In this document: positions 3,327-64,000 of the stretch, piece after piece
How positions within the stretch are numbered: position 1 is the first letter of the stretch
Layout: each line of letters begins with the position of its first letter
From: Streptomyces humidus
Lineage (GTDB): Bacteria; Actinomycetota; Actinomycetes; Streptomycetales; Streptomycetaceae
DNA: 64,000 nucleotides
Reading direction: 5' to 3'
Assembly (NCBI RefSeq): GCF_014649655.1
Contig: NZ_BMTL01000024.1
Coordinates: 62,001 to 126,000, forward strand
The notes under the pieces: model-generated
Database searches by the model: none
What the model saw: only the letters and a program-made list of their open reading frames with translations
Told to the model about the DNA's origin: nothing
Made by a program: the position numbers and the translations under genes

Positions 3327-6212
3327 GTGTTCTCGGATCCGGTGTTGCAACAAGCCGCAGGCGGCGTCATTGCCAGTGTTATCGGCGCCACGGCGACGCG
3401 CCTTGGCGTGACCCTCAGGTCTCTGGGCAGCCGAGGCCTCAAGGAAGATGAAGAAGTTGTTAAATGGTTTAATACTTACACGGTTGCCGAATCGGCACCT
3501 CGAATCTCCACTCTGCCGACTGGCGTTCCCGAAAGTGAACTTTGTCGAATCCTGGAGAGCTCGGCGTTTCATTCCGTGATTCATGAGCTATTGGCCGCAC
3601 GCCTCACCGATGCCCCAGAAGCTGATGTTCAAGATATCCGAAAGGTTTTTGAGCTCACGCTGGGCTACGCTAATCCCGCTGTGGATATATCTGATTTTTC
3701 CGATGCCCTATTTGATTACTACGATGCCGAGATCTCCTCGATTGTTGGAAGAATTCAAGGAGCTTCGCCTGAATTTCTCCCAAGGCTGAGAAGTGAGGCT
3801 TTCGCGGCACGGATGGTCTCCTCCCTGAAGGCGCTCGAGCGGAGAGTGCGGTCCTATGACACGGCAGACCCTCAAAGGGATCGCGCGTTCCTTCTTCGCT
3901 ACAAAAATCATCTTTTGGAGGAATTTGGGAAAATTGAACCCCCAGACTTCGAGCGCCGCCGTCGCGTTCCAATCTCCGATCTCTATGTGACTCCGGAAAT
4001 CAATCAACTTGATATGCCCAATGCAAGCCCAATCGATGTCTGGGAGTTGGGTCGCAGAATCGATAGGACAGTTCTGCTCGGGGATCCGGGAGGGGGTAAG
4101 ACAACAGCATCAAATGTCCTCATGCATTGGCATGCAAATTCGAATGGTCAACTTACCCCATTCCTGGTCACTCTCCGAGAATTTGCATCACAGGACCCTC
4201 CAGAGCGGTCCGTCCTGAAACACATTGAGCACACGCTTGAAATCATTTATCAGTGCCCCCCGCCCGAAGGGCTCATCTCGCGACTGCTCCTTTCGGGTTC
4301 AGCCCTCGTAATCTTCGACGGTCTGGACGAATTGATCGACACGGCGCGGCGATCTGAAGTAACTACGATCGTCGAGCGATTTTGCACGGAGTACCCGATG
4401 GTAAAGGTACTCGTAACTTCACGCCTCGTCGGATACGATCAAGCGCGCCTCGACGATCAGTGTTTTACTCGATACCGTGTTGGAGGGTTCGACACGGCGA
4501 GAGTGAGCGAATACGTCCGGAAATGGTTCGCGCAAGAGAGTGGAATTAGCAACCCGGAGGCGGAAGCCCTTGCTGAAGCCTTCATGAGTGAAAGTGTCAC
4601 TGTTTCAGACCTCAGATCTAATCCGCTCATGCTTGCCCTGATGTGTATTCTTTATCGCGGAGAGGGTTCGATCCCGAGAAATAGGCCAGAAGTCTACGAG
4701 CAATGCGCTGGCTTGCTTTTTAGAAAGTGGGATGCGAGGCGGCGAATCCACACGGAGCTTCGAGCGCGCCCACATGTCGAACCCGCTCTACGACACTTGG
4801 CCTATTGGCTTTTTAGTCGACAGGACACCGAGTCGGCAGTAACTCATGGCGGCTTGATCAGTGAAACTGCCAAGTTCCTGCATGGGCGGGGATTTGAGTC
4901 GATCGATGAAGCGAAAGAGGCAGCAGAAGAGTTCGTGGACTTCTGTAAAGGGCGTGCTTGGGTCTTCAGTGATGCTGGAACAACGGCTCGAGGGGAAGCG
5001 CTCTACACTTTTACCCACCGCACGTTTTTGGAATATTTCACGGCTGCGTATCTCTCATCGGTCAGTGATACACCTGAGAAGCTAGCAAAGCTACTAGTAC
5101 CCCACGTCGCGAAAGAAGAGTGGGAGGTAGTAGCTGAGTTGGCCGTGCAAATGAAGGATCGTTCCGTTGATCAGGGTGCGGCCAGGGTTTACAGGAGCTT
5201 GCTGAGTGATCGCCGTTACACGGCGTTTGACAGTCGCAGCAATCTACTCTGTTTCCTTGCTGCGTGCCTGGAGTCCGTTGATCCTCCGCCGGCTGTAGTG
5301 CGGGAGCTCACTCGTAACTGCCTCAGCCATCTTCTTCGCGGCAGCTTGAATGATCAGCTATTCTATGCTCCTCTGCTTGTTTTGGTCAGGTGCAGTGGTG
5401 CCTATCGTGAAATCGTCGCCAGCGAAATAACAGCAAAAATTGATGAACTTGCTGAATCAAGCGACGAATCGATGAGACTGGCAGGTCTTAGACTCGCAGT
5501 CTGGTGTGACCCGCAGAATAGTACCTACTCACGTGGGCCCCTGGGTTCCATCGGGGAGGAAATTGGACGCTATTGGCGTGATTTTACTGAAGCCAATTGT
5601 GTTCGATTTGAGTCGGAGATTGTTGCAGCGGCGGAAGCTGACTCAGGCTTCTTGCATCTTGCTCTCATGCGGAGACTTATTGATTTGGAGCAGGTGCTAT
5701 CGCATCCGCATAATTTTGAAAAGTTGACGATTGGGGGCCACCCCATCGCTATTTTCGGAACTATCTGGTCGCCGTACTTGCCGACCCAGGCCATCAAGCT
5801 GGTGACACAGCCGGAGGATGTAGCTGAGGACACCCTTAAAGACATGGCGGTGGTGGGCAAATATGTTGCTCAACACTCTTCTCCGCCCTGGATGCGTTCA
5901 GATAGCGGTCACTGGGCAGGATTTGTGCGTCCCGTGGTCGATCCTCCAACATTGCAGCCACTGCAATCCGATGCCTTCCTGGGGGCATCAGTATTGCTGA
6001 TGATCATCGTTGAGCTATCAGGAGATGTCGGCTTCAGGTCCGGGACGCCGGAGGATTTGGGTTTTCTTTCCGATCTCCATCCGTATCTCGTGACGCGAGT
6101 TGCTCGTCAAACTGAAGTTGTTCTTCCACCTCTGCCGATTCCTCAGGAGCTGCAAGGACTTATGGAGCGCTGGGCTCTGGGAGAAGTCGATTTTCTACGG
6201 AGCAACGCATAG
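3327..6212 (+). CDS. NACHT-domain STAND NTPase, probable anti-phage effector/sensor
   Basis: About 961 aa from the preferred GTG; the frame stays open back to 2880, so the start is uncertain. Order: N-terminal helical region (~1-240); Walker A GDPGGGKTT (nt ~4080-4110); Walker B LVIFDGLDEL (nt ~4305-4335); sensor VLVTSR; the NACHT-typical helical stretch with LMLALMCILY and HRTFLEYFTAAYL; then a long helical C-terminus without obvious WD40 or LRR repeats. NACHT/STAND ATPases in bacteria oligomerise on sensing phage proteins and trigger abortive responses. Base composition is clearly AT-richer than all neighbours, with many A/T-ending codons, indicating acquisition from a lower-GC source. No separate nuclease or TIR domain is visible, so the effector is unknown; the divergent Mrr protein is a candidate partner. 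Confidence 0.88.
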   Translation: MFSDPVLQQAAGGVIASVIGATATRLGVTLRSLGSRGLKEDEEVVKWFNTYTVAESAPRISTLPTGVPESELCRILESSAFHSVIHELLAARLTDAPEADVQDIRKVFELTLGYANPAVDISDFSDALFDYYDAEISSIVGRIQGASPEFLPRLRSEAFAARMVSSLKALERRVRSYDTADPQRDRAFLLRYKNHLLEEFGKIEPPDFERRRRVPISDLYVTPEINQLDMPNASPIDVWELGRRIDRTVLLGDPGGGKTTASNVLMHWHANSNGQLTPFLVTLREFASQDPPERSVLKHIEHTLEIIYQCPPPEGLISRLLLSGSALVIFDGLDELIDTARRSEVTTIVERFCTEYPMVKVLVTSRLVGYDQARLDDQCFTRYRVGGFDTARVSEYVRKWFAQESGISNPEAEALAEAFMSESVTVSDLRSNPLMLALMCILYRGEGSIPRNRPEVYEQCAGLLFRKWDARRRIHTELRARPHVEPALRHLAYWLFSRQDTESAVTHGGLISETAKFLHGRGFESIDEAKEAAEEFVDFCKGRAWVFSDAGTTARGEALYTFTHRTFLEYFTAAYLSSVSDTPEKLAKLLVPHVAKEEWEVVAELAVQMKDRSVDQGAARVYRSLLSDRRYTAFDSRSNLLCFLAACLESVDPPPAVVRELTRNCLSHLLRGSLNDQLFYAPLLVLVRCSGAYREIVASEITAKIDELAESSDESMRLAGLRLAVWCDPQNSTYSRGPLGSIGEEIGRYWRDFTEANCVRFESEIVAAAEADSGFLHLALMRRLIDLEQVLSHPHNFEKLTIGGHPIAIFGTIWSPYLPTQAIKLVTQPEDVAEDTLKDMAVVGKYVAQHSSPPWMRSDSGHWAGFVRPVVDPPTLQPLQSDAFLGASVLLMIIVELSGDVGFRSGTPEDLGFLSDLHPYLVTRVARQTEVVLPPLPIPQELQGLMERWALGEVDFLRSNA

Positions 6213-6320
6213 GCTGACCGCCGATTGGCGGGAAATAGTCCTGCTAGCGGTGAGCGGTTAATTGTTCTGCGCGCGGCACGGGCGCCGGCCGGGTTGGAGC
6301 GGGACGAAGGCAGGAGCGCA

Positions 6321-6341
6321 GGCCCGGCCGGGGGCCGGGCC
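6321..6341. terminator. GC-rich hairpin after the NACHT gene
   Basis: GGCCCGGCC (6321-6329) and GGCCGGGCC (6333-6341) are perfect inverted arms with a 3-nt loop, about 110 bp after the NACHT stop and 50 bp from the convergent gene at 6393. Probably a bidirectional terminator without a T-tract. Confidence 0.65.
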
Positions 6342-6392
6342 GCGCGCGGGGAGCGGAGCGAGCCGCCTTGAACCAGTAGAGAAAGTTGTAAC

Positions 6393-6776
6393 TCAGTTGG
6401 CTCTATGGGGCTTGAAGTCATTCGTGCAGGCTGGGAGTTCGACGCCCTGACGGTGTGCCAGGGGTAGGAAGAGAGCTGGTCGGACCGTCCATGTGATGCG
6501 TGTGCTGATGTGCGTGATGGACACCGTCCAGGGCTCCCGGCGCAACAGGGCTCGTCTCGTGTCGATGCGGTCGTCGTGGAGTCGTGTCCACGCCTCCTGG
6601 GAAGCGGCGGTGTCCGGGGCCGGTGAGATGGTGCGCAGGATCGTCGCCACCCAGTTGTTCGCCTCGACCGCCGAGTACGCGTCGAAGGATCCGAAGAGCG
6701 CCGGCGGGCGTCGTCCGTCGAGCCGTTGTGTCCAGCACTCGCACCAGAAGCCCGGCCGGGTCGTCGTCCTCAGCAC
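6393..6776 (-). CDS. Hypothetical protein coupled to an anti-sigma-type ATPase
   Basis: 127 aa, family not recognised. The GTG start overlaps the 3' end of the upstream ATPase gene and is preceded by GAGGAGG, so it is translationally coupled to it. Visible features are a Trp/Cys cluster near the N-terminus (GFWCECW) and SFDAYSAVEANNWVATIL, resembling small proteins often found after HATPase_c_2 genes in Streptomyces. No signal peptide or membrane segment is evident. The frame was chosen over the overlapping +1 frame because the latter is only Arg/Pro/Thr-rich low-complexity sequence. It is probably a partner or client of the ATPase. Confidence 0.6.
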   Translation of the reverse strand: MLRTTTRPGFWCECWTQRLDGRRPPALFGSFDAYSAVEANNWVATILRTISPAPDTAASQEAWTRLHDDRIDTRRALLRREPWTVSITHISTRITWTVRPALFLPLAHRQGVELPACTNDFKPHRAN

Positions 6777-7198
6777 GGGTGGCCTCCTCGGCCTGCGTCG
6801 GTGAAGAGCTCCGCCGTGATGGTGTGGCCGGCCTCGCTGCCGTGGACGACGACCCGGTGAGCGATCGAGGTGACCATGCCGAGTCCGCGGCCGTGTTCGG
6901 CGTCCTGGTCCTGGTGCTCGATCTTCGGGGCCGTGCCCGTGCCTCCGGCATCCGTCACGGATACCGCCACCACCTGAGCCGAGACGGCGACGGCCAGGTG
7001 GAAGCTGCCGGACTCGCCTCCGCTCGCCGTGTGCAGGATCGCGTTCGCGCTCAGCTCGCTCACGATCAGCTCGGCGTCCTCGGCGAAGGGGGAGCCTCGC
7101 AGGACGTCGCGCGTCCATCGGCGGGCCCGGCTGACCTCTTCCGGGAAACCTGGGCAAGACAGTCCCCAGACCCGGGCAGTACTCGTATACTCGTGCAT
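6770..7198 (-). CDS. ATP-binding regulatory protein (HATPase_c_2, anti-sigma-factor type)
   Basis: 142 aa from ATG 7198, which is preceded by AAGGAAC at proper spacing; a longer frame begins at 7228. GHKL fold motifs: N-box ELIVSELSANAILH, DAGGTG (G1-like) and HGRGLGMV (G2). This is the RsbW/SpoIIAB-like family, which binds anti-sigma or regulator partners and is very abundant in Streptomyces. It lies within the AICE next to the regulatory genes, downstream of a TAGACGAGT box at 7246-7254, and so may be controlled with the transfer functions. No sigma factor or anti-anti-sigma gene is adjacent, so it could act on a host regulator. Confidence 0.82.
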   Translation of the reverse strand: MHEYTSTARVWGLSCPGFPEEVSRARRWTRDVLRGSPFAEDAELIVSELSANAILHTASGGESGSFHLAVAVSAQVVAVSVTDAGGTGTAPKIEHQDQDAEHGRGLGMVTSIAHRVVVHGSEAGHTITAELFTDAGRGGHPC

Positions 7199-7244
7199 AC
7201 AAGTTCCTTCATGCTGGTAGGCCGCCATGTGCAGCGGGTTCGGA

Positions 7245-7676
7245 CTAGACGAGTTTCACGCCGTCGTGGGCGCGGATGGCTGGCGGAGACGCCGCGTCGA
7301 GTGCGTCTATGACGCGAATCGCGTATGCCTCGTCAGCGAGTTCGGAGACTTCTTCACGAGTCACCCAGCGCAGTGCGCGGGTCTCGTCGCCGGTGGTCGG
7401 CGTACCGTCGGCCGCCTCGCAGCGGAAGACCAGCGAGACGATCAGACCCGTCATGTTCTTGTAGACGCCGGTGAGGGTCGCGGGAAGCGCGATCTTGATG
7501 CCGGTCTCTTCGAGGACTTCGCGTTGAAGGGCTTCGGGGACGGTCTCCTCGCGTTCGAGGATGCCGCCCGGCGGTTCCCAGTGACCGTTGTCCCGGCGCT
7601 GGATCAGGAGGGCCCGGCCCTGGGCGTCGACGACGACCCCGGCCACGCTCACGGAGTGCGGGCGTTCTGTGCTCAC
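7245..7676 (-). CDS. NUDIX hydrolase, Pif-like
   Basis: 143 aa from GTG 7676 (VSTERPHSVSVAGVVV). A complete Nudix box is visible: GGILEREETVPEAL followed by REVLEETGI, matching GX5EX7REUXEEXGU with all metal-binding Glu residues present. Nudix enzymes hydrolyse nucleoside diphosphates linked to other moieties. In pSAM2 the Nudix protein Pif prevents redundant transfer between element-bearing cells, and its gene is controlled by the GntR repressor KorSA. The divergent arrangement with a KorSA-like gene here supports the same immunity role. An in-frame extension to 7760 exists but overlaps the promoter region and operator box. Confidence 0.85.
   Translation of the reverse strand: MSTERPHSVSVAGVVVDAQGRALLIQRRDNGHWEPPGGILEREETVPEALQREVLEETGIKIALPATLTGVYKNMTGLIVSLVFRCEAADGTPTTGDETRALRWVTREEVSELADEAYAIRVIDALDAASPPAIRAHDGVKLV
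7246..7254 (+). promoter_or_regulatory. TAGACGAGT box
   Basis: Exact copy of the nonamer, overlapping the stop codon of the NUDIX gene and about 50 bp upstream of the ATPase start at 7198. Its first bases are coding sequence of the NUDIX gene, so chance is possible here. Confidence 0.4.
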
Positions 7677-57131: not shown

Positions 57132-59291
57132 ATGAGCGAGCATCTCCGCACATCGCCCGAGTCGGAGCGAACGGCCGGGACGGTCAGGCCGGTCAGGCAG
57201 ACGGCCGGGTCCCCCCACCGTGGAGGAGGGAGGGCGCTGCGGGCCGGCGTCCCCCTCGCCCTGATCGCCGCCTGCGCCCTCGCCCAAGGCTCCCTCGCCC
57301 ACGGCGCCGACTTCGGCCTCGCCGCCGCGGCGGGACAGGCGCAGGCCGCCGCCGCGACCTCGCCCGCCTGGGCCACCGCCTCCGCCGACGGTTTCGCGTC
57401 CGTCGACGCGCTCGGGCAGAACGGCACCTACGGCGGCCGGGACGGCAGGACCGTCACCGTGCGAACCCTCGCCGACCTGGAGAAGTACGCGACGGCCGCC
57501 GAGCCGTACGTCATCGTGGTCGCCTCGACGATCACCATGGACCCGGTCGGCAAGGAGATCAAGGTCCGGTCGGACAAGACGATCGTCGGCTCCGGGACCG
57601 CCGGGCAGATCGTCGGCGGCGGCTTCTTCCTCGGCCAGGGCGTCCACAACGTGATCATCCGCAACCTGACGATCCGGGACGCGTACCAAGGGGTCTGGAA
57701 CGACAAGGAACACGACTTCGACGGCATCCAGATGGACGGCGCGCACCACGTCTGGATCGACCACAACGACATCCGGAACATGGCCGACGGGCTCATCGAC
57801 AGCCGCAAGGACACCACGTACCTGACCGTCTCCTGGAACAAGCTCAGCCAGGACAACAAGGCGTTCGGCATCGGCTGGACCGACAACGTCACCGCCGACC
57901 TCACGATCCACCACAACTGGATCCGCGAGACCGAGCAGCGCAACCCCTCCACGGACAACGTCGCCCACGCGCACCTGTACAACAACTTCCTGGAGGACGT
58001 GGCGGGGACGTCCATCAAATCGTCCTACGGCGACTACGCGCGCGGCAGGACCAACATGGTCCTGGAGAACTCCTGCTTCCAGGGCATGACCAACCCCGTG
58101 ATCCGGGACGCCACCGCGACCCTCGTCCAGCGCGGCAACGTCTTCTCCGGCACGAGCGGCAGGAACGAGAGCGGCGGCACGGGCGCGGCCTGGGACCCGA
58201 GGACGTACTACGCGTACGCCCTCGACAAGGCGGCTGACGTGCCCGCGCTGCTCAAGTCGGGTGCGGGACCGCGCGGTTCGATCGGCACGACCTCGACGGC
58301 AGCCGCGAGGACGACGACCACGGCGCGGGCCGCCGCCGCGACCACGCTCACCGTCGCCAAGGACGGCAGCGGGCAGTACACGACCGTGCAGGCCGCCGTG
58401 AACGCCGTCCCGGCGAACAACCCCTCGCGCGTCGTGATCGCCGTCAAGCCCGGCACGTACCGCGAGCTGGTCAAGGTGCCGTCCAACAAGCCGCACGTCA
58501 CCATCCGGGGCACCGGCGGCAGCCGCAAGGACACCACGATCGTCTACAACAACGCGTCGGGCACCCCCAAGCCCGGCGGCGGCACGTACGGCACCGGCGG
58601 CAGCGCCACCGTCGCCGTCGAGGCGGACGACTTCCAGGCCCGCAACCTGACCATCTCCAACGACTTCGACGAGGGGGCCCACCAGGACATCGCCGGCCAG
58701 GCGGTCGCCCTGCGGACCGCCTCCGACAAGGTGTTCCTGGACGGCGTCATCGTCAGCGGCGACCAGGACACCCTGCTGGTGGACACCGCGTCCAAGGACA
58801 GGCTGGGCCGCGTCTACATGGCCGACTCCCAAGTCATCGGCAACGTCGACTTCATCTTCGGCCGCGCCACCGCGGTGATCGACAGGTCGGTCATCACGCT
58901 GAAGAAGCGCTGGAACGGCACCTCGGCCGGGTATGTCACCGCCCCCAGCACCGCCGCCGGCCGCAAGGGCATCCTGATCGCCAACTCCACGGTGAACGGC
59001 GACGTGTCCGACCGCAGCTTCTACCTCGGCCGCCCCTGGCACGCCGGCGGCGACGCGAGCCTCGACCCGCAGGCCACGGTCCGCGACACCACCCTGAGCG
59101 CCGCGATCAGGACCGCGCCCTGGACCGACATGAGCGGCTTCTCCTGGAAGGACGACCGGTTCGCCGAGTACCGGAACAGGGGCGCGGGGGCCGGCGCCGC
59201 GAGCACCGACCGCCCTCAGCTCACCGACGCGCAGGCCGCCGGCCAGGAGGTCGCGGACTGGCTGGGGGACTGGACCCCCAGCGCGTCCTGA
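57132..59291 (+). CDS. Secreted bifunctional pectate lyase (PL1) - pectinesterase (CE8)
   Basis: 719 aa; ATG with AAGGG upstream. Signal peptide after a ~35-residue basic N-region (AGVPLALIAACALAQGSLAH). Domain 1 (~60-390) is a PL1 beta-helix: VWIDHNDI, TVSWNKLS, IHHNWI and NPSTDNVAHAHLYNN. A Thr/Ala linker follows (~395-410). Domain 2 (~412-700) is CE8: GTYRELVKVP, GDQDTLLVD (~543), GNVDFIFGRA with nucleophile Asp (~570), and YLGRPW with Arg (~631). CE8 removes methyl esters from pectin, producing the substrate for PL1 cleavage, so the fusion couples both steps. This is a plant-polysaccharide degrader in a region otherwise of core genes. Confidence 0.92.
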   Translation: MSEHLRTSPESERTAGTVRPVRQTAGSPHRGGGRALRAGVPLALIAACALAQGSLAHGADFGLAAAAGQAQAAAATSPAWATASADGFASVDALGQNGTYGGRDGRTVTVRTLADLEKYATAAEPYVIVVASTITMDPVGKEIKVRSDKTIVGSGTAGQIVGGGFFLGQGVHNVIIRNLTIRDAYQGVWNDKEHDFDGIQMDGAHHVWIDHNDIRNMADGLIDSRKDTTYLTVSWNKLSQDNKAFGIGWTDNVTADLTIHHNWIRETEQRNPSTDNVAHAHLYNNFLEDVAGTSIKSSYGDYARGRTNMVLENSCFQGMTNPVIRDATATLVQRGNVFSGTSGRNESGGTGAAWDPRTYYAYALDKAADVPALLKSGAGPRGSIGTTSTAAARTTTTARAAAATTLTVAKDGSGQYTTVQAAVNAVPANNPSRVVIAVKPGTYRELVKVPSNKPHVTIRGTGGSRKDTTIVYNNASGTPKPGGGTYGTGGSATVAVEADDFQARNLTISNDFDEGAHQDIAGQAVALRTASDKVFLDGVIVSGDQDTLLVDTASKDRLGRVYMADSQVIGNVDFIFGRATAVIDRSVITLKKRWNGTSAGYVTAPSTAAGRKGILIANSTVNGDVSDRSFYLGRPWHAGGDASLDPQATVRDTTLSAAIRTAPWTDMSGFSWKDDRFAEYRNRGAGAGAASTDRPQLTDAQAAGQEVADWLGDWTPSAS

Positions 59292-59306: not shown

Positions 59307-59690
59307 CTACACGCCCGCCGCGTAGCCGACGCCGACCGCGGTCACCATGACCATCGCCGAGCCGATGATCCAGGCCATCGCGCCCTTGCTGGCCTTCGTC
59401 GTCGGGTCCTCGACCCACCGGTAGTGGTCCCGGGTGATCGTGGAGCGGACCGGGCCCAGCATGAGGGGCATCATGACCATGACCGCGGCGTAGAGATACA
59501 GGGTCGCGGGCAGTGCGTTGTGCTGCACCAGAGCCCGCAGGCCCAGGGTCGCGATGCCGATGACCGGCATCCACACCTGTTTTTTCTTGTACTTCGGTAT
59601 CTGGATGATCCACTGCATCGCGACGAGGTTGACGACGGTCGCGCCCGCCGCGATGAGGATCCAGACGCTGGTGGACAGCGACAGAAACAT
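59307..59690 (-). CDS. Four-helix small membrane protein, partner of ALF-repeat protein
   Basis: 127 aa from ATG 59690. About three to four hydrophobic segments (SVWILIAAGATVVNLVAMQW, LYLYAAVMVMMPLML, WIIGSAMVMVTAVGVGYAAG). It starts 7 bp after the stop of the large upstream ALF-repeat gene, same strand, so it is co-transcribed. No family recognised. Position after a large secreted repeat protein with a hydrophobic C-terminus suggests an immunity or secretion partner (inference). Confidence 0.75.
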   Translation of the reverse strand: MFLSLSTSVWILIAAGATVVNLVAMQWIIQIPKYKKKQVWMPVIGIATLGLRALVQHNALPATLYLYAAVMVMMPLMLGPVRSTITRDHYRWVEDPTTKASKGAMAWIIGSAMVMVTAVGVGYAAGV

Positions 59691-59697
59691 GGGCGTC

Positions 59698-62600
59698 CTA
59701 GAAGAGTGAGTCCCAGCCGTCGGATATGGCGTCTCCGATGCCGGACACGGAGTCACCGGCCGCGTCCCAGGCCGTGGTCGCGTAGGTGACGGCGGGGCCC
59801 ACCATCTCATGACCGATCCGCGTGGCCGTCACGGTGGCGCTCTTCAGGCCCTCCGCACCCCACTCGATCATGTGGGACATGCCCGGCACCTTGATCTTGC
59901 CGAGGACGAAGCCGCCGGTGAGGGCGCCTACCGCCAGGCCCGCGACGGAGCCGTAGAACGCGTCGGACGTCCAGCCGTCGGTGAAGCCGGTGATGACGGC
60001 CGAGCCGATGCCGGTGACCCAGGAGATGGTGCCGAACACGCCGGCGGCCGCGTCGAAGGGCGGCGGAAGGAGCAGGCAGAGCGCCGCCGCGGTCCCGGAG
60101 ACGGCACTGACCCCGTTCAGCAGCTGCGCGAACTCCTGCCAGTCCTTCTTGCTGCCCCAGCCGTCGGGGCTGTCGACCTTGTCGCTGTCGCTGCCGGCGG
60201 AGGGGTCGACGCCGTTCTGCTTGTTCTGCCTCGCCACCTCCGCCGCCTTGCGCGCGGCCTCGGCGAGCTCCTGCTTGCGCTTGGCGACCGCCGTGGCGCG
60301 GGCCTCGCTGGCGGCCTTGGCGGCGGCCGCGGCGTCCTTGCCCGCCGCGTCGGCGGAGGCGCGGGCCGCGTTCGCCGACGCCTGCGCCCGGCTGGCGGAC
60401 GCGGCGGCCGCGGCGGCGGAGGCCACGGCCTGGTTCGCCGAGTAGTTCGCCTGCCGGGCCGCGGTGCGGGCGGACGCGGCCGCGGTCTTCGCCTTGTCCG
60501 CGGAGGCCTGCGCGTCCTTCGCGGACTGCTCGGCGGCGTCGGCGTTCGCGTCGGCCTGGGTGGCGTACTCGCGGGCCTTGTCGGCGGACGCGTTGGCCTT
60601 GTCCGCCCACTTCGCCGCCTCCGCGGACGCCTTGCGCGCGTCGGCCGCGGCCTTGGACGCCTGGCAGGCGTCCTTCTGCGCGTCCTGGGCGATCTTCGCG
60701 GCGCGCGCGATGGAGGCCCGGACGGCCGCGACGTGCGTGGCGGCGTCGTAGTCGAGCTGCGCCGTGCGGTGGCAGACCGAGTTGACGAAGTCGCGGCGCA
60801 TCCACGTCGGGCCTTCGAGGGCCACCTGGGCGGCCGCCTTGGTGTAGGGGCCGGCCGTGTTCAGGATGGCGAAGACGGCGACCTCGTCGTCCTGCCTGAT
60901 GTTCTCGGCGTACGTGCTGAAGAACCCGTGCAGGGCCTGGGGCGAGCCGTCGTCCAGCGCGGCCCGCGCCGCCGCCGAGACCGCCTTGCCGGGCTTGCCG
61001 TCGAGGATCCTCAGCACGCGGACGCGGTTGTCCTCGGCGGCGGCCGCCATGATCCCCGTGGTCAGGAACGCGCCCACGGCGGACGTGTCCGCGGCGTCCA
61101 GCGCCGTCGCGGCGGCGTCGGCGACGTTCTCGGTGGACACCTTCACCACGGCCAGGAGCGTTTCGCGGTCGTCCTGGTTCTGCGCGATCTGCCGGTCGGC
61201 GGCGACCCACGCGAGGACGTCCTCGTCGGCTCCGGCGAGGGCGTGCTCGGCCGCGTCCCGGCTCCAGGTGCCGATCGTGGTGGAGATCAGGTTCAACGCG
61301 GCCAGACGGCCGGCGGAGAGGGCCTGCGCCGTGTCCCCGGCCGCATCCGCCTTCTCGGCCTTGGCGATGAGGTCCTTGGTCGCGGTGTCGAGGGCGTCGG
61401 ACTGGGTGGCGGCCGTGCGGGCCTTCTCCCGGTCCTCCGCCTCCGCGCGGGCCATCTCCCGGGCCTCGGCGAGGGACTGTTCGAGGTCCTGGGCCAGTTT
61501 CTGCGCCTCGGAGTCGCGGGCGGCCTTCTCGACGGCCTCGGCGTCCTGGACGGCCTTCACCGCGGCCTCGGCCGCCTTGACCGACTCGGCGGCCCACTTG
61601 GTGGCCGTGGCGGCGTACTCGGCCGCCTTGACGGCTCCGTCCGCCGCGGCCTTGGCGGCCTTCGCCGCGTTCTCGGCGTGCGTGGCGGCGGAGTTGGCCG
61701 CGTCGCGGGCGGCGGCGGCCGCCTGCGCGGCGATGCCGGCCAGCGACTGCGCGGTGTTCGCGGCGGCGGTGGCGCGGGCCGCCTGCGCGTTGGCCTCGGC
61801 GGCGGCCGCCTTGGCGGCGGCGGCCTCGCTCTGAGCGGCGCCCGAAGCGGCGGCGGCGGTGGCGGCGGCCTGGGCCGCGGCGGCGGAGTTGCGGGCCGCG
61901 CCGGCGGCGGCGGAACCGGCGGCCGCGGCCTGGTTGGAGGCGGTCGCCGCCGCGTCGGCCGCCTTGGCTGCCGTGCGGGCCTGGCTCGCCGCCTTGTTCG
62001 CCCCGTCGGCGGCCAGCCGGGCGGCCTTGGCCTTGGTGGCGTCGTTCGCCGCGGCGACGGCGGCGGAGTAGGCGGCGGACGCGGCCCGTCCGGCCGTCGC
62101 CGCCGCCTGGGCCGCCGCGGTGGCCGCGTACGAGGCCCGGCGGGCCGCGGAGTGCGCGGCCGCGGACGCCTGGACCGCGGTGCGGGACGCGGCGGCGGCG
62201 CCCTGCGCGGCGGACGCGGCCTTGCGGGCCGCCTTGCCGGACTTGAGGACGTCGTCGCGGGCCGCGTCGGCTTCCGCTGCGGCCTCCTCGGCGGCCTTCC
62301 TGGCCTGGGCGGCGGCCTCCTTCGCCTTGGCGGAGGCGGCGACGGCCCGGTCCGAGGTGAGCTGGGCCCGCCTGCCCTCGCGTTCCACGATCGCCACCAG
62401 CTGCTCGATGGTGGCGGCCTCCTGGTCCCGGGCGCGCGCGATGTACTGACCGGTGTTCAGGAACCAGTGGATCGCGGACGGGCTGCCGTCGTTCAGAGCG
62501 CGCTCGGCGTACTTCTTCACCTCCGGGGAGGCGGTGGCCAGGATCTTGAAGACCTCGGCCTGCTCGTCCTCGCGGCGGGCGGTGATCTGGGTGTTCAGCA

Positions 62601-63144
62601 GGAAGTCGGTCAGGGCGTCGCCGGTGCCGGTGTCGAGGGCCTTCTGCGCCTCGCGCTGCACGCCGGTGCCGCCGCTGTTCAGAATGGTCAGCGTGGTGAC
62701 GCGCAGGTCCTCCAGCTCGGCCGTTCTGAAGCCGCCGGACAGGAAGGCGGCGACGGAGTCGTCGCCCGCGGTGAGCGCGGCGGCGGCGTCGCGGGCGATG
62801 CCCTTGCCGGAGGCGGGCAGCGCCTTGAGGAGGGCGAAACGGTTGTCCTCGGCGGTGGCGCCCGGCAGATCCGTGGTCAGGAAGCGGTCGACGTCGGCGG
62901 CGGAGCCGGTCAGCGCCGCGGCCGCGGCGCTCTTGACGGACCGTCCGCCGATCTTCCACGCGGTGACGACCCTCGCGCGGTCCGTGTCCGGGAGGTGCGA
63001 GAGCCTCGGCAGGTCCGCGGAGCCCGTTGAGCCCGCGGCGGCGGCCAGCGCCCGGGAGGGCGCCGCGAGAGAGACCGCGGTGGCCGCGGTGGCGGCTCCG
63101 GCGACGGTGAGAAGCCGGCGCCTGCTCCAGTACGTGGTTTCCAA
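59698..63144 (-). CDS. Giant Ala-rich ALF-repeat protein with Tat-type signal
   Basis: About 1148 aa from TTG 63144 (GGGGGA 4 nt upstream); in-frame starts exist to 63339. N-terminus YWSRRRLLTVAGAATAATAV is a twin-arginine-like signal. Short ALF repeats occur twice, at ~60-290 and ~690-830 (for example NRFALLKAL, AAFLSGGF, DALTDFLLN and AVGAFLTTG). Two very long Ala-rich coiled coils separate and follow them. The C-terminal ~190 residues have hydrophobic stretches (GTAAALCLLLPPPFDAAAGV, GSVAGLAVGALTGGFVLG). ALF repeats occur in actinobacterial polymorphic toxin-like and peptidoglycan-associated proteins. No classical toxin motif is visible, so function is unknown. Confidence 0.85.
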   Translation of the reverse strand: METTYWSRRRLLTVAGAATAATAVSLAAPSRALAAAAGSTGSADLPRLSHLPDTDRARVVTAWKIGGRSVKSAAAAALTGSAADVDRFLTTDLPGATAEDNRFALLKALPASGKGIARDAAAALTAGDDSVAAFLSGGFRTAELEDLRVTTLTILNSGGTGVQREAQKALDTGTGDALTDFLLNTQITARREDEQAEVFKILATASPEVKKYAERALNDGSPSAIHWFLNTGQYIARARDQEAATIEQLVAIVEREGRRAQLTSDRAVAASAKAKEAAAQARKAAEEAAAEADAARDDVLKSGKAARKAASAAQGAAAASRTAVQASAAAHSAARRASYAATAAAQAAATAGRAASAAYSAAVAAANDATKAKAARLAADGANKAASQARTAAKAADAAATASNQAAAAGSAAAGAARNSAAAAQAAATAAAASGAAQSEAAAAKAAAAEANAQAARATAAANTAQSLAGIAAQAAAAARDAANSAATHAENAAKAAKAAADGAVKAAEYAATATKWAAESVKAAEAAVKAVQDAEAVEKAARDSEAQKLAQDLEQSLAEAREMARAEAEDREKARTAATQSDALDTATKDLIAKAEKADAAGDTAQALSAGRLAALNLISTTIGTWSRDAAEHALAGADEDVLAWVAADRQIAQNQDDRETLLAVVKVSTENVADAAATALDAADTSAVGAFLTTGIMAAAAEDNRVRVLRILDGKPGKAVSAAARAALDDGSPQALHGFFSTYAENIRQDDEVAVFAILNTAGPYTKAAAQVALEGPTWMRRDFVNSVCHRTAQLDYDAATHVAAVRASIARAAKIAQDAQKDACQASKAAADARKASAEAAKWADKANASADKAREYATQADANADAAEQSAKDAQASADKAKTAAASARTAARQANYSANQAVASAAAAAASASRAQASANAARASADAAGKDAAAAAKAASEARATAVAKRKQELAEAARKAAEVARQNKQNGVDPSAGSDSDKVDSPDGWGSKKDWQEFAQLLNGVSAVSGTAAALCLLLPPPFDAAAGVFGTISWVTGIGSAVITGFTDGWTSDAFYGSVAGLAVGALTGGFVLGKIKVPGMSHMIEWGAEGLKSATVTATRIGHEMVGPAVTYATTAWDAAGDSVSGIGDAISDGWDSLF

Positions 63145-63598
63145 GAATCCCCCATGGATATGCACCCGGGCCTGCGCCCGGGTCAGGGGCGGGCCGCCGG
63201 GTGTCGTCGGCTGAAGCTGTGCGAAGCCTGCCGGCGCGGCGCGGGCCGGTCGGCCCGGGCTCACACGGCGGCTGCTGCCGCACCTGGCTGCTGCCGTACC
63301 TGGCTGTTGCAGGGGCGAACTTATGTGATTGCCACACAAGTTGACCAGGCATCAGTTACAACGAGAAGGAATGACAAAGACCACACCGCGATATGTCCGT
63401 CTTGGCATGGAATTCCGCGATCAAATCAGTGGCGCTCCCCCCGCACGGCTGTTTGAATGCACCGGCTTCCAGGGCCGCCTGACCCGCGGTCAGCTCTCGG
63501 GCGTCCCGCGCGCCCTCAGGCGGTACACGGAATCGCTCCACCGTTCCCCGAAGGGAACGCAAAGAGCACGCAAGGTAACTCTCATCAGGGGGACAACC
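63145..63598. other. Divergent intergenic region with hairpins and tandem repeat
   Basis: 454 bp between the ALF gene and a divergent secreted-protein gene. Contains the hairpin ACCCGGGC/GCCCGGGT (63164-63183) in the ALF leader and a 16-bp tandem repeat GCTGCTGCCGYACCTG (63271-63302). An AT-rich promoter stretch (~63318-63425) and the dyad at 63542-63559 complete it. No gene seen. Confidence 0.6.
63542..63559. promoter_or_regulatory. Dyad CGTTCCC-CGAA-GGGAACG
   Basis: Perfect 7-bp arms with a 4-nt centre, 40 bp before the ATG at 63599. Could be an operator or a 5'-UTR tetraloop hairpin. Confidence 0.6.
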
Positions 63599-64000
63599 AT
63601 GAAACACGCACGGCGGATCATCGCCACCGGTGCGGTCGCCGCGGCCTGCGCCGGCGCGGTCGTCTTCGCGTCGGCTTCCGGCGCCTCCCACCACCCGGCT
63701 GCCGGCCCCGCCTCCGCCGGCCACGCGGCCCCGGTCGTCGACGGCGCACCCGGATACGCGGTCGAGGACTTCGCCTACCCGGGCGCCGACGCCATCAAGG
63801 CGCAGCGGGGCATCACGCTCAAGCGCGGCGACGGCCACATCACGCTCGCCGACTGCGCCTCGGGCACCGGCCTGATGGAGGTGTACTCGCGCAAGAGCGA
63901 GAAGATCTGCTTCCGCGCCACCGGCCTCTCCGGCTACCTCAGCCTGGAGATCCCCTCCGTCTACGGCGTCAAGGGCGAAGCCGACCACGAGGCCGCCGTT
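63599..64000 (+). CDS. Secreted hypothetical protein (3' end outside window)
   Basis: At least 134 aa, cut by the window edge; ATG 63599 with AGGGGG upstream. Sec signal peptide (MKHARRIIATGAVAAACAGA, cleavage near ASA-SG). The mature part has YAVEDFAYPGADAIKAQRGI, LKRGDGHITLADCASGTGLM and a Cys pair (DCAS, KICF), a small beta-rich secreted domain. No family named with confidence. Confidence 0.8.
   Translation, partial: MKHARRIIATGAVAAACAGAVVFASASGASHHPAAGPASAGHAAPVVDGAPGYAVEDFAYPGADAIKAQRGITLKRGDGHITLADCASGTGLMEVYSRKSEKICFRATGLSGYLSLEIPSVYGVKGEADHEAAV

Follow-up and report, generated by a model that had tools for sequence, protein, structure and literature searches.

What is the function of the giant ALF-repeat protein encoded in a stretch of the Streptomyces humidus genome (64,000 nucleotides, positions 62,001 to 126,000 of contig NZ_BMTL01000024.1, RefSeq assembly GCF_014649655.1; hereafter the window), and what is the role of the small membrane protein encoded directly behind it? 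The original prediction considered this pair (59307-63144) a possible toxin-immunity system not yet described or, alternatively, a surface fibre and its anchor. Its description is accurate: the span is exact, and the ALF blocks, the alanine stretches, the hydrophobic end and the small membrane gene 7 bp further on all hold. However, the span stops short of umbB (from 63599) and of umbA (past the window end), and the system had in fact been described: it is the umbrella toxin (UmbC/UmbB/UmbA), the particles of which act against rival bacteria and were reported in 2024, with UmbC1 solved as 8W20/8W22 (PMC11062931). We consider it highly likely that this locus supplies all components of an umbrella toxin particle, with a putative membrane-inserting tip and a putative immunity protein of 127 residues.

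The assignment of the giant protein to UmbC follows from its ring. umbC lies on the minus strand (59698-63144) and encodes the core protein of the particle, as indicated by its open reading frame (ORF), Pfam and the PDB match; read from a TTG at 63144 to the stop at 59698-59700, it yields 1,148 residues. The ORF opens upstream of the TTG, and an in-frame GTG at 63165 is, by eye, an alternative start. Pfam recognises ALF (PF03752) at an E-value of 5.1e-48 in eight stretches forming two blocks (seven were listed by coordinate and all eight were later placed). Repeats 1-4 form the first half-ring (62437-62979, minus strand) and repeats 5-8 the second (60781-61308, minus strand). At E ≤0.01, chain A of 8W20 (8w20_A) is the sole PDB sequence related to full-length UmbC, along ring and stalk (E 3.4e-95), and it is again the only PDB match when the first half-ring is searched without the stalk (E 2.5e-43). 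A chance origin of the pattern is excluded, because the half-ring by itself matches UmbC1 and because the same gene order is found again in other Streptomyces. 8W20 and 8W22 are the structures of the Umb1 particle deposited with the umbrella-particle paper (PMC11062931); chains A, B and C of 8W20 carry generic deposited names and, judging from our matches, would be UmbC1, UmbB1 and UmbA1. A search with the second half-ring gave matches at E ≤1e-10 in 156 of 392 genomes.

The two other particle genes adjoin umbC. umbB starts on the plus strand at 63599 (its first part, 63599-64000, is in the window, and the gene runs on to contig position C24:126126), and its product matches 8w20_B at E 3.2e-19 and has the AVED motif described for UmbB (PMC11062931). 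umbA follows beyond the window end (C24:126155-128338; L029:5656-7839), identified by PDB match and Pfam: its product matches 8w20_C at E 3.8e-51 and 9oee_A at E 6.8e-49, the latter structure being what we take to be UmbA4 of a 2025 Cell paper (PMC13274773). In Pfam this product consists of a trypsin domain and then FG-GAP repeats, the latter a putative sugar-binding lectin. Trypsins carry TAAHC at the catalytic His; in the umbA product this position reads TAASC by eye, in line with the reported proteolytic inactivity of published UmbA (PMC11062931). As a side observation, the trypsin-like part of UmbA matches the NCBIfam model of the fusidic acid esterase FusH (E 1.2e-44; 153 bits with a cut-off of 999), and UmbA may, given this match, hide among proteins that carry a secreted-esterase annotation. 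Judged by its gene content, the umbD-umbC/umbB-umbA locus is complete for an umbrella particle. With Umb1-Umb3 of Streptomyces coelicolor (PDB 8W20, 8W22; PMC11062931) it shares neighbouring umbB and umbA genes and a five-spoke ALF residue pattern, and it differs from them by the 127-residue membrane protein encoded right after umbC.

This residue pattern concerns position 4 of the ALF repeats. In the published system, UmbB no longer binds ALF2 when position 4 of this repeat is given the residue found in ALF6, a Gln (PMC11062931). At this position the window UmbC has Phe, Val, Ala, Glu, Val and Val in repeats 2, 3, 4, 6, 7 and 8 (repeats placed by eye). For comparison, 69 loci were taken, of which 60 had a usable ring and tip (the others are L065 and eight regions, L047-L054, with an orphan homologue of the membrane protein) and 51 remained after identical tips were dropped; this set was chosen partly by tip and partly by ring similarity, and proportions within it do not represent the genus. 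All 51 aligned UmbC share a Glu at position 4 of repeat 6, where UmbC1 has Gln (around 61173-61162 in the window), and Val occupies this position in 45/51 for repeat 7 and 47/51 for repeat 8, bearing in mind that these are related sequences, the window's own among them, and not independent observations. The pattern agrees with the published effect of Gln at position 4, which prevents UmbB binding, and fits a five-spoke particle.

The C-terminal tip of UmbC (residues 988-1148; 59701-60183, minus strand) is a putative toxin domain by hydropathy and alignment. Three hydrophobic segments are found by hydropathy in the last 160 residues (1008-1026, 1033-1051 and 1063-1081). Of 199 Streptomyces genomes (taken, from handle numbers, as part of the 392 of the ring search), 11 contain relatives of the tip, its own genome being one of them, and such relatives were found at 19 named loci. 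Their alignment contains invariant glycines, serines and prolines, and no enzyme-like pattern was seen in it by eye. Among the 51 distinct UmbC, the tips hold two or three hydrophobic segments in 46 and one in 5, and the window tip is 27-39% identical to the hydrophobic tips of L030, L056, L057 and L059; by alignment, it belongs to a hydrophobic superfamily that is common in this UmbC clade. The published domain that it resembles is 4TM tox, which ranks among the two most frequent UmbC tips and is the tip of S. coelicolor UmbC2, itself a predicted pore former; it shares with the window tip a hydrophobic, helical character and a predicted action on membranes, and it lowered viability when expressed by itself in a heterologous host (PMC11062931). 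The window tip most likely represents one branch of this 4TM tox family, the resemblance being one of described properties; a UmbB1 search for S. coelicolor among the 392 genomes gave 81% identity at best, and neither that genome nor its UmbC2 was thus found among them. The tip is probably a pore-type, membrane-inserting toxin domain. Searches beyond these relatives brought no further family: profile search of the PDB gave only chance-level matches to the tip (best E 0.13), a Pfam scan of 10 tips gave two that touch CatAgl_D2 (best E 0.0029), taken as chance, and plasmid records contained no match to the tip or to the 127-residue protein.

The ATG of the small gene (59307-59690, minus strand), here proposed as umbD, lies 7 bp past the umbC stop. 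By hydropathy its 127-residue product has four hydrophobic segments, and its structural model shows four long helices and a short one, with a mean predicted local distance difference test score (pLDDT) of 81. It falls in no Pfam or NCBIfam family, Pfam also gave none for 11 relatives, and a profile search of the PDB returned nothing at E ≤1. From the linkage described below, it is probably the UmbD immunity protein of the producer. Pore-forming colicins are similar in kind: the toxin is helical and pore-type, and the producer is protected by a small multi-helix protein of its inner membrane; family searches show no sequence relation to them, and the delivery particle, the target envelope and secretion all differ.

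The linkage between tip and partner supports this proposal. Across the 12 loci with tips at least 50% identical to that of the window (L061-L072), a homologue of the 127-residue protein lies next to umbC in 10, counting L063 where it is split over two frames; over these loci the tip ranges from ~96 to 50% identity to the window and the partner, where present, from ~90 to 32%, such that the invariance of C-terminus and partner, which would have spoken against the original prediction, was not found. More broadly, 26 of the 51 distinct UmbC are followed, no more than 150 nt further on, by the start of an ORF of 100-165 residues that contains three or more hydrophobic segments, as compared with 33 of 3,000 random positions. 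Over these 26 loci, distances correlate at 0.85 between tip and partner, 0.79 between ring and partner and 0.67 between ring and tip; once the ring is accounted for, tip and partner retain a partial correlation of 0.69, a value reached in none of 2,000 permutations (n=26). The toxin-immunity part of the original prediction is supported by this comparison and probably right.

A number of observations nevertheless weigh against a pore-type tip with its own membrane immunity protein. Only three of the four hydrophobic segments expected of a 4TM tip are clear, and an AlphaFold2 model of the tip from 18 sequences (the window's and those of 17 loci, after the partial tips of L073 and L079 were dropped from the 19) reached a mean pLDDT of 48, with five helices at low confidence. 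The model of the 127-residue protein found nothing above background in Foldseek (best E 4.2) or in VIA-align against 62 chains (best Z 5.5 at 5.2 Å over 117 residues), an outcome that neither assigns a family nor rules one out. Two of the 12 close tip relatives, L068 and L069, lack an adjoining homologue, and 25 of the 51 UmbC have no adjacent multi-helix ORF, although at 13 of these 25 loci the available downstream sequence is shorter than 600 nt. A profile built from 12 partners detects none at any site in three genomes with a related tip (G192, G215, G393); it detects one away from the tip in G246, two in the L068 genome and a fragment in G277. The three genomes devoid of partner imply that the pairing is not obligatory or that immunity has diverged beyond detection. 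Finally, the main text of PMC11062931 assigns UmbD1 to the Imm1 family and UmbD3 to the Imm88 family and offers no immunity candidate for the 4TM-tipped UmbC2.

Could the 127-residue protein instead have a separate role in the producer, for example in helping export or in anchoring the particle before release? The close tip relatives that lack an adjoining homologue (L068, L069 and L046) would fit such a role, as would the distribution of the protein: 11 of the 199 genomes have homologues, and while in four of these (G000, G062, G118, G132) a homologue adjoins an UmbC with a related tip, six others (G020, G111, G120, G136, G137, G144) are without a match to the window UmbC ring, the G120 homologue itself being a weak match. 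Immunity genes would be expected to occur as orphans in this way, yet these copies are also compatible with another function. However, a helper in export or anchoring should be common to all umbrella loci, contrary to the 25 of 51 that lack such an adjacent ORF, and the partner tracks the tip beyond what the conserved ring accounts for, which makes this role unlikely. It is less likely still that the tip does not itself kill and instead provides membrane entry or anchorage for a different toxin. This idea draws on a related tip subtype without a membrane partner, next to which a secreted NucA/NucB-matching protein is encoded at 7 of 7 loci with long flanks, as opposed to 0 of 15 loci with a membrane ORF; against it, no NucA/NucB-type gene was seen beside the window locus, and the published 4TM tox lowered viability when expressed alone, as noted above. 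The least credible alternative, which we regard as very remote, is a structural surface fibre with a membrane anchor and no toxin function: long coiled coils and a membrane protein as the downstream product would fit it, but the adjoining UmbB and UmbA genes match a solved secreted particle of which published UmbC is the core, the tip diverges in step with its own partner, and a second full locus in the same genome bears another tip version. This part of the original prediction was abandoned when the neighbouring genes turned out to be umbB and umbA.

The subtype with a NucA/NucB-type neighbour could be a second branch of the pore-type tips. Tips with endings like EEGKELVSS- or GED(V/L)VS have an adjacent membrane ORF in none of 13 loci assigned by pattern, nor at L107 (0/1), added by eye; the split into subtypes is post hoc, drawn after the data were seen. 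Where such loci have long flanks (L030, L057, L059, L075, L076, L077, L078), all seven encode next to umbC a homologue of a secreted 499-residue protein, which at L030, the one of the seven covered by the scan, scores 26.2 bits against Pfam DNase_NucA_NucB (cut-off 23.8); this homologue is absent from the 15 membrane-ORF loci for which over 5 kb of sequence was available. At the window locus, where no gene of this type was seen, the downstream stretch is short and occupied by a convergent plus-strand gene. We tentatively suggest that the 127-residue protein founds a new four-helix UmbD group and that pore-type tips have split between those with their own immunity gene and those with a NucA/NucB-type companion, this secreted protein perhaps being a further weapon admitted through the pore. 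No four-helix membrane immunity group was met in the main-text passages of PMC11062931 and PMC13274773, the families being tabulated in supplements that lay outside that search.

The genome itself holds further umb genes, with three UmbB and three UmbA in total (C24, C5 and C4). L030 (G000:C5:208000-222000) is the second full umb locus, with half-rings 51 and 57% identical to those of the window, its own umbB and umbA and a different version of a related tip; it has no adjacent membrane partner, the secreted 499-residue protein being next. On C4 (L116, G000:C4:138000-156000), an umbB and umbA pair lies at ~5210-7357, and no umbC was recognised within the 18 kb taken. Three side observations can be added. 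An orphan small membrane protein on C12 (L118:7958-8281, G000:C12) matches the partner profile at E 3e-6 and resembles by eye those partners that accompany tips of other types (L060, L105); its region showed no umbC. On C13, an alanine-rich coiled-coil ORF of 1,277 residues (L031:2534-6364, G000:C13) has one ALF match of 27.7 bits and a C-terminus that looks by eye like a RelE/ParE-type toxin, with no Pfam family at E ≤0.01. In the window, the plus-strand gene at 57132-59291, convergent with umbD, resembles a secreted pectinesterase by eye, and L018 has a similar neighbour.

How might the particle work? Membership in UmbA, UmbB and UmbC, the layout of the locus, the tip-partner linkage and the correlated divergence were computed here; assembly, secretion and killing are carried over from the published system and would apply to S. 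humidus by analogy. UmbC would be exported, probably by the twin-arginine route given a signal-like region at its start (SRRRLLT followed by a hydrophobic stretch, by eye and hydropathy; 63043-63144, minus strand), and its two half-rings would close into one ring. UmbB would dock on ALF repeats 2, 3, 4, 7 and 8, each UmbB holding one UmbA, of which the inactive trypsin domain would grip UmbB while the FG-GAP repeat domain would act as a lectin that chooses the target. The tip would be presented by a long stalk, formed by the alanine-rich coiled-coil stretches at 61312-62436 and, together with a linker, at 60184-60780 (both minus strand, by eye, limits approximate). It would then most likely enter the cytoplasmic membrane of the target and make it leak, as predicted for the 4TM tox of UmbC2, while the 127-residue protein would most likely sit in the membrane of the producer, block the inserted tip and thereby confer immunity.

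A seemingly mysterious giant gene can thus be assigned to a Streptomyces weapon system that was discovered only recently, and the gene beside it becomes a testable immunity candidate against a pore-type umbrella tip, a position left open for UmbC2 in the main text of PMC11062931. If this candidate works, its orphan copies would mark strains that resist the weapon without making it.

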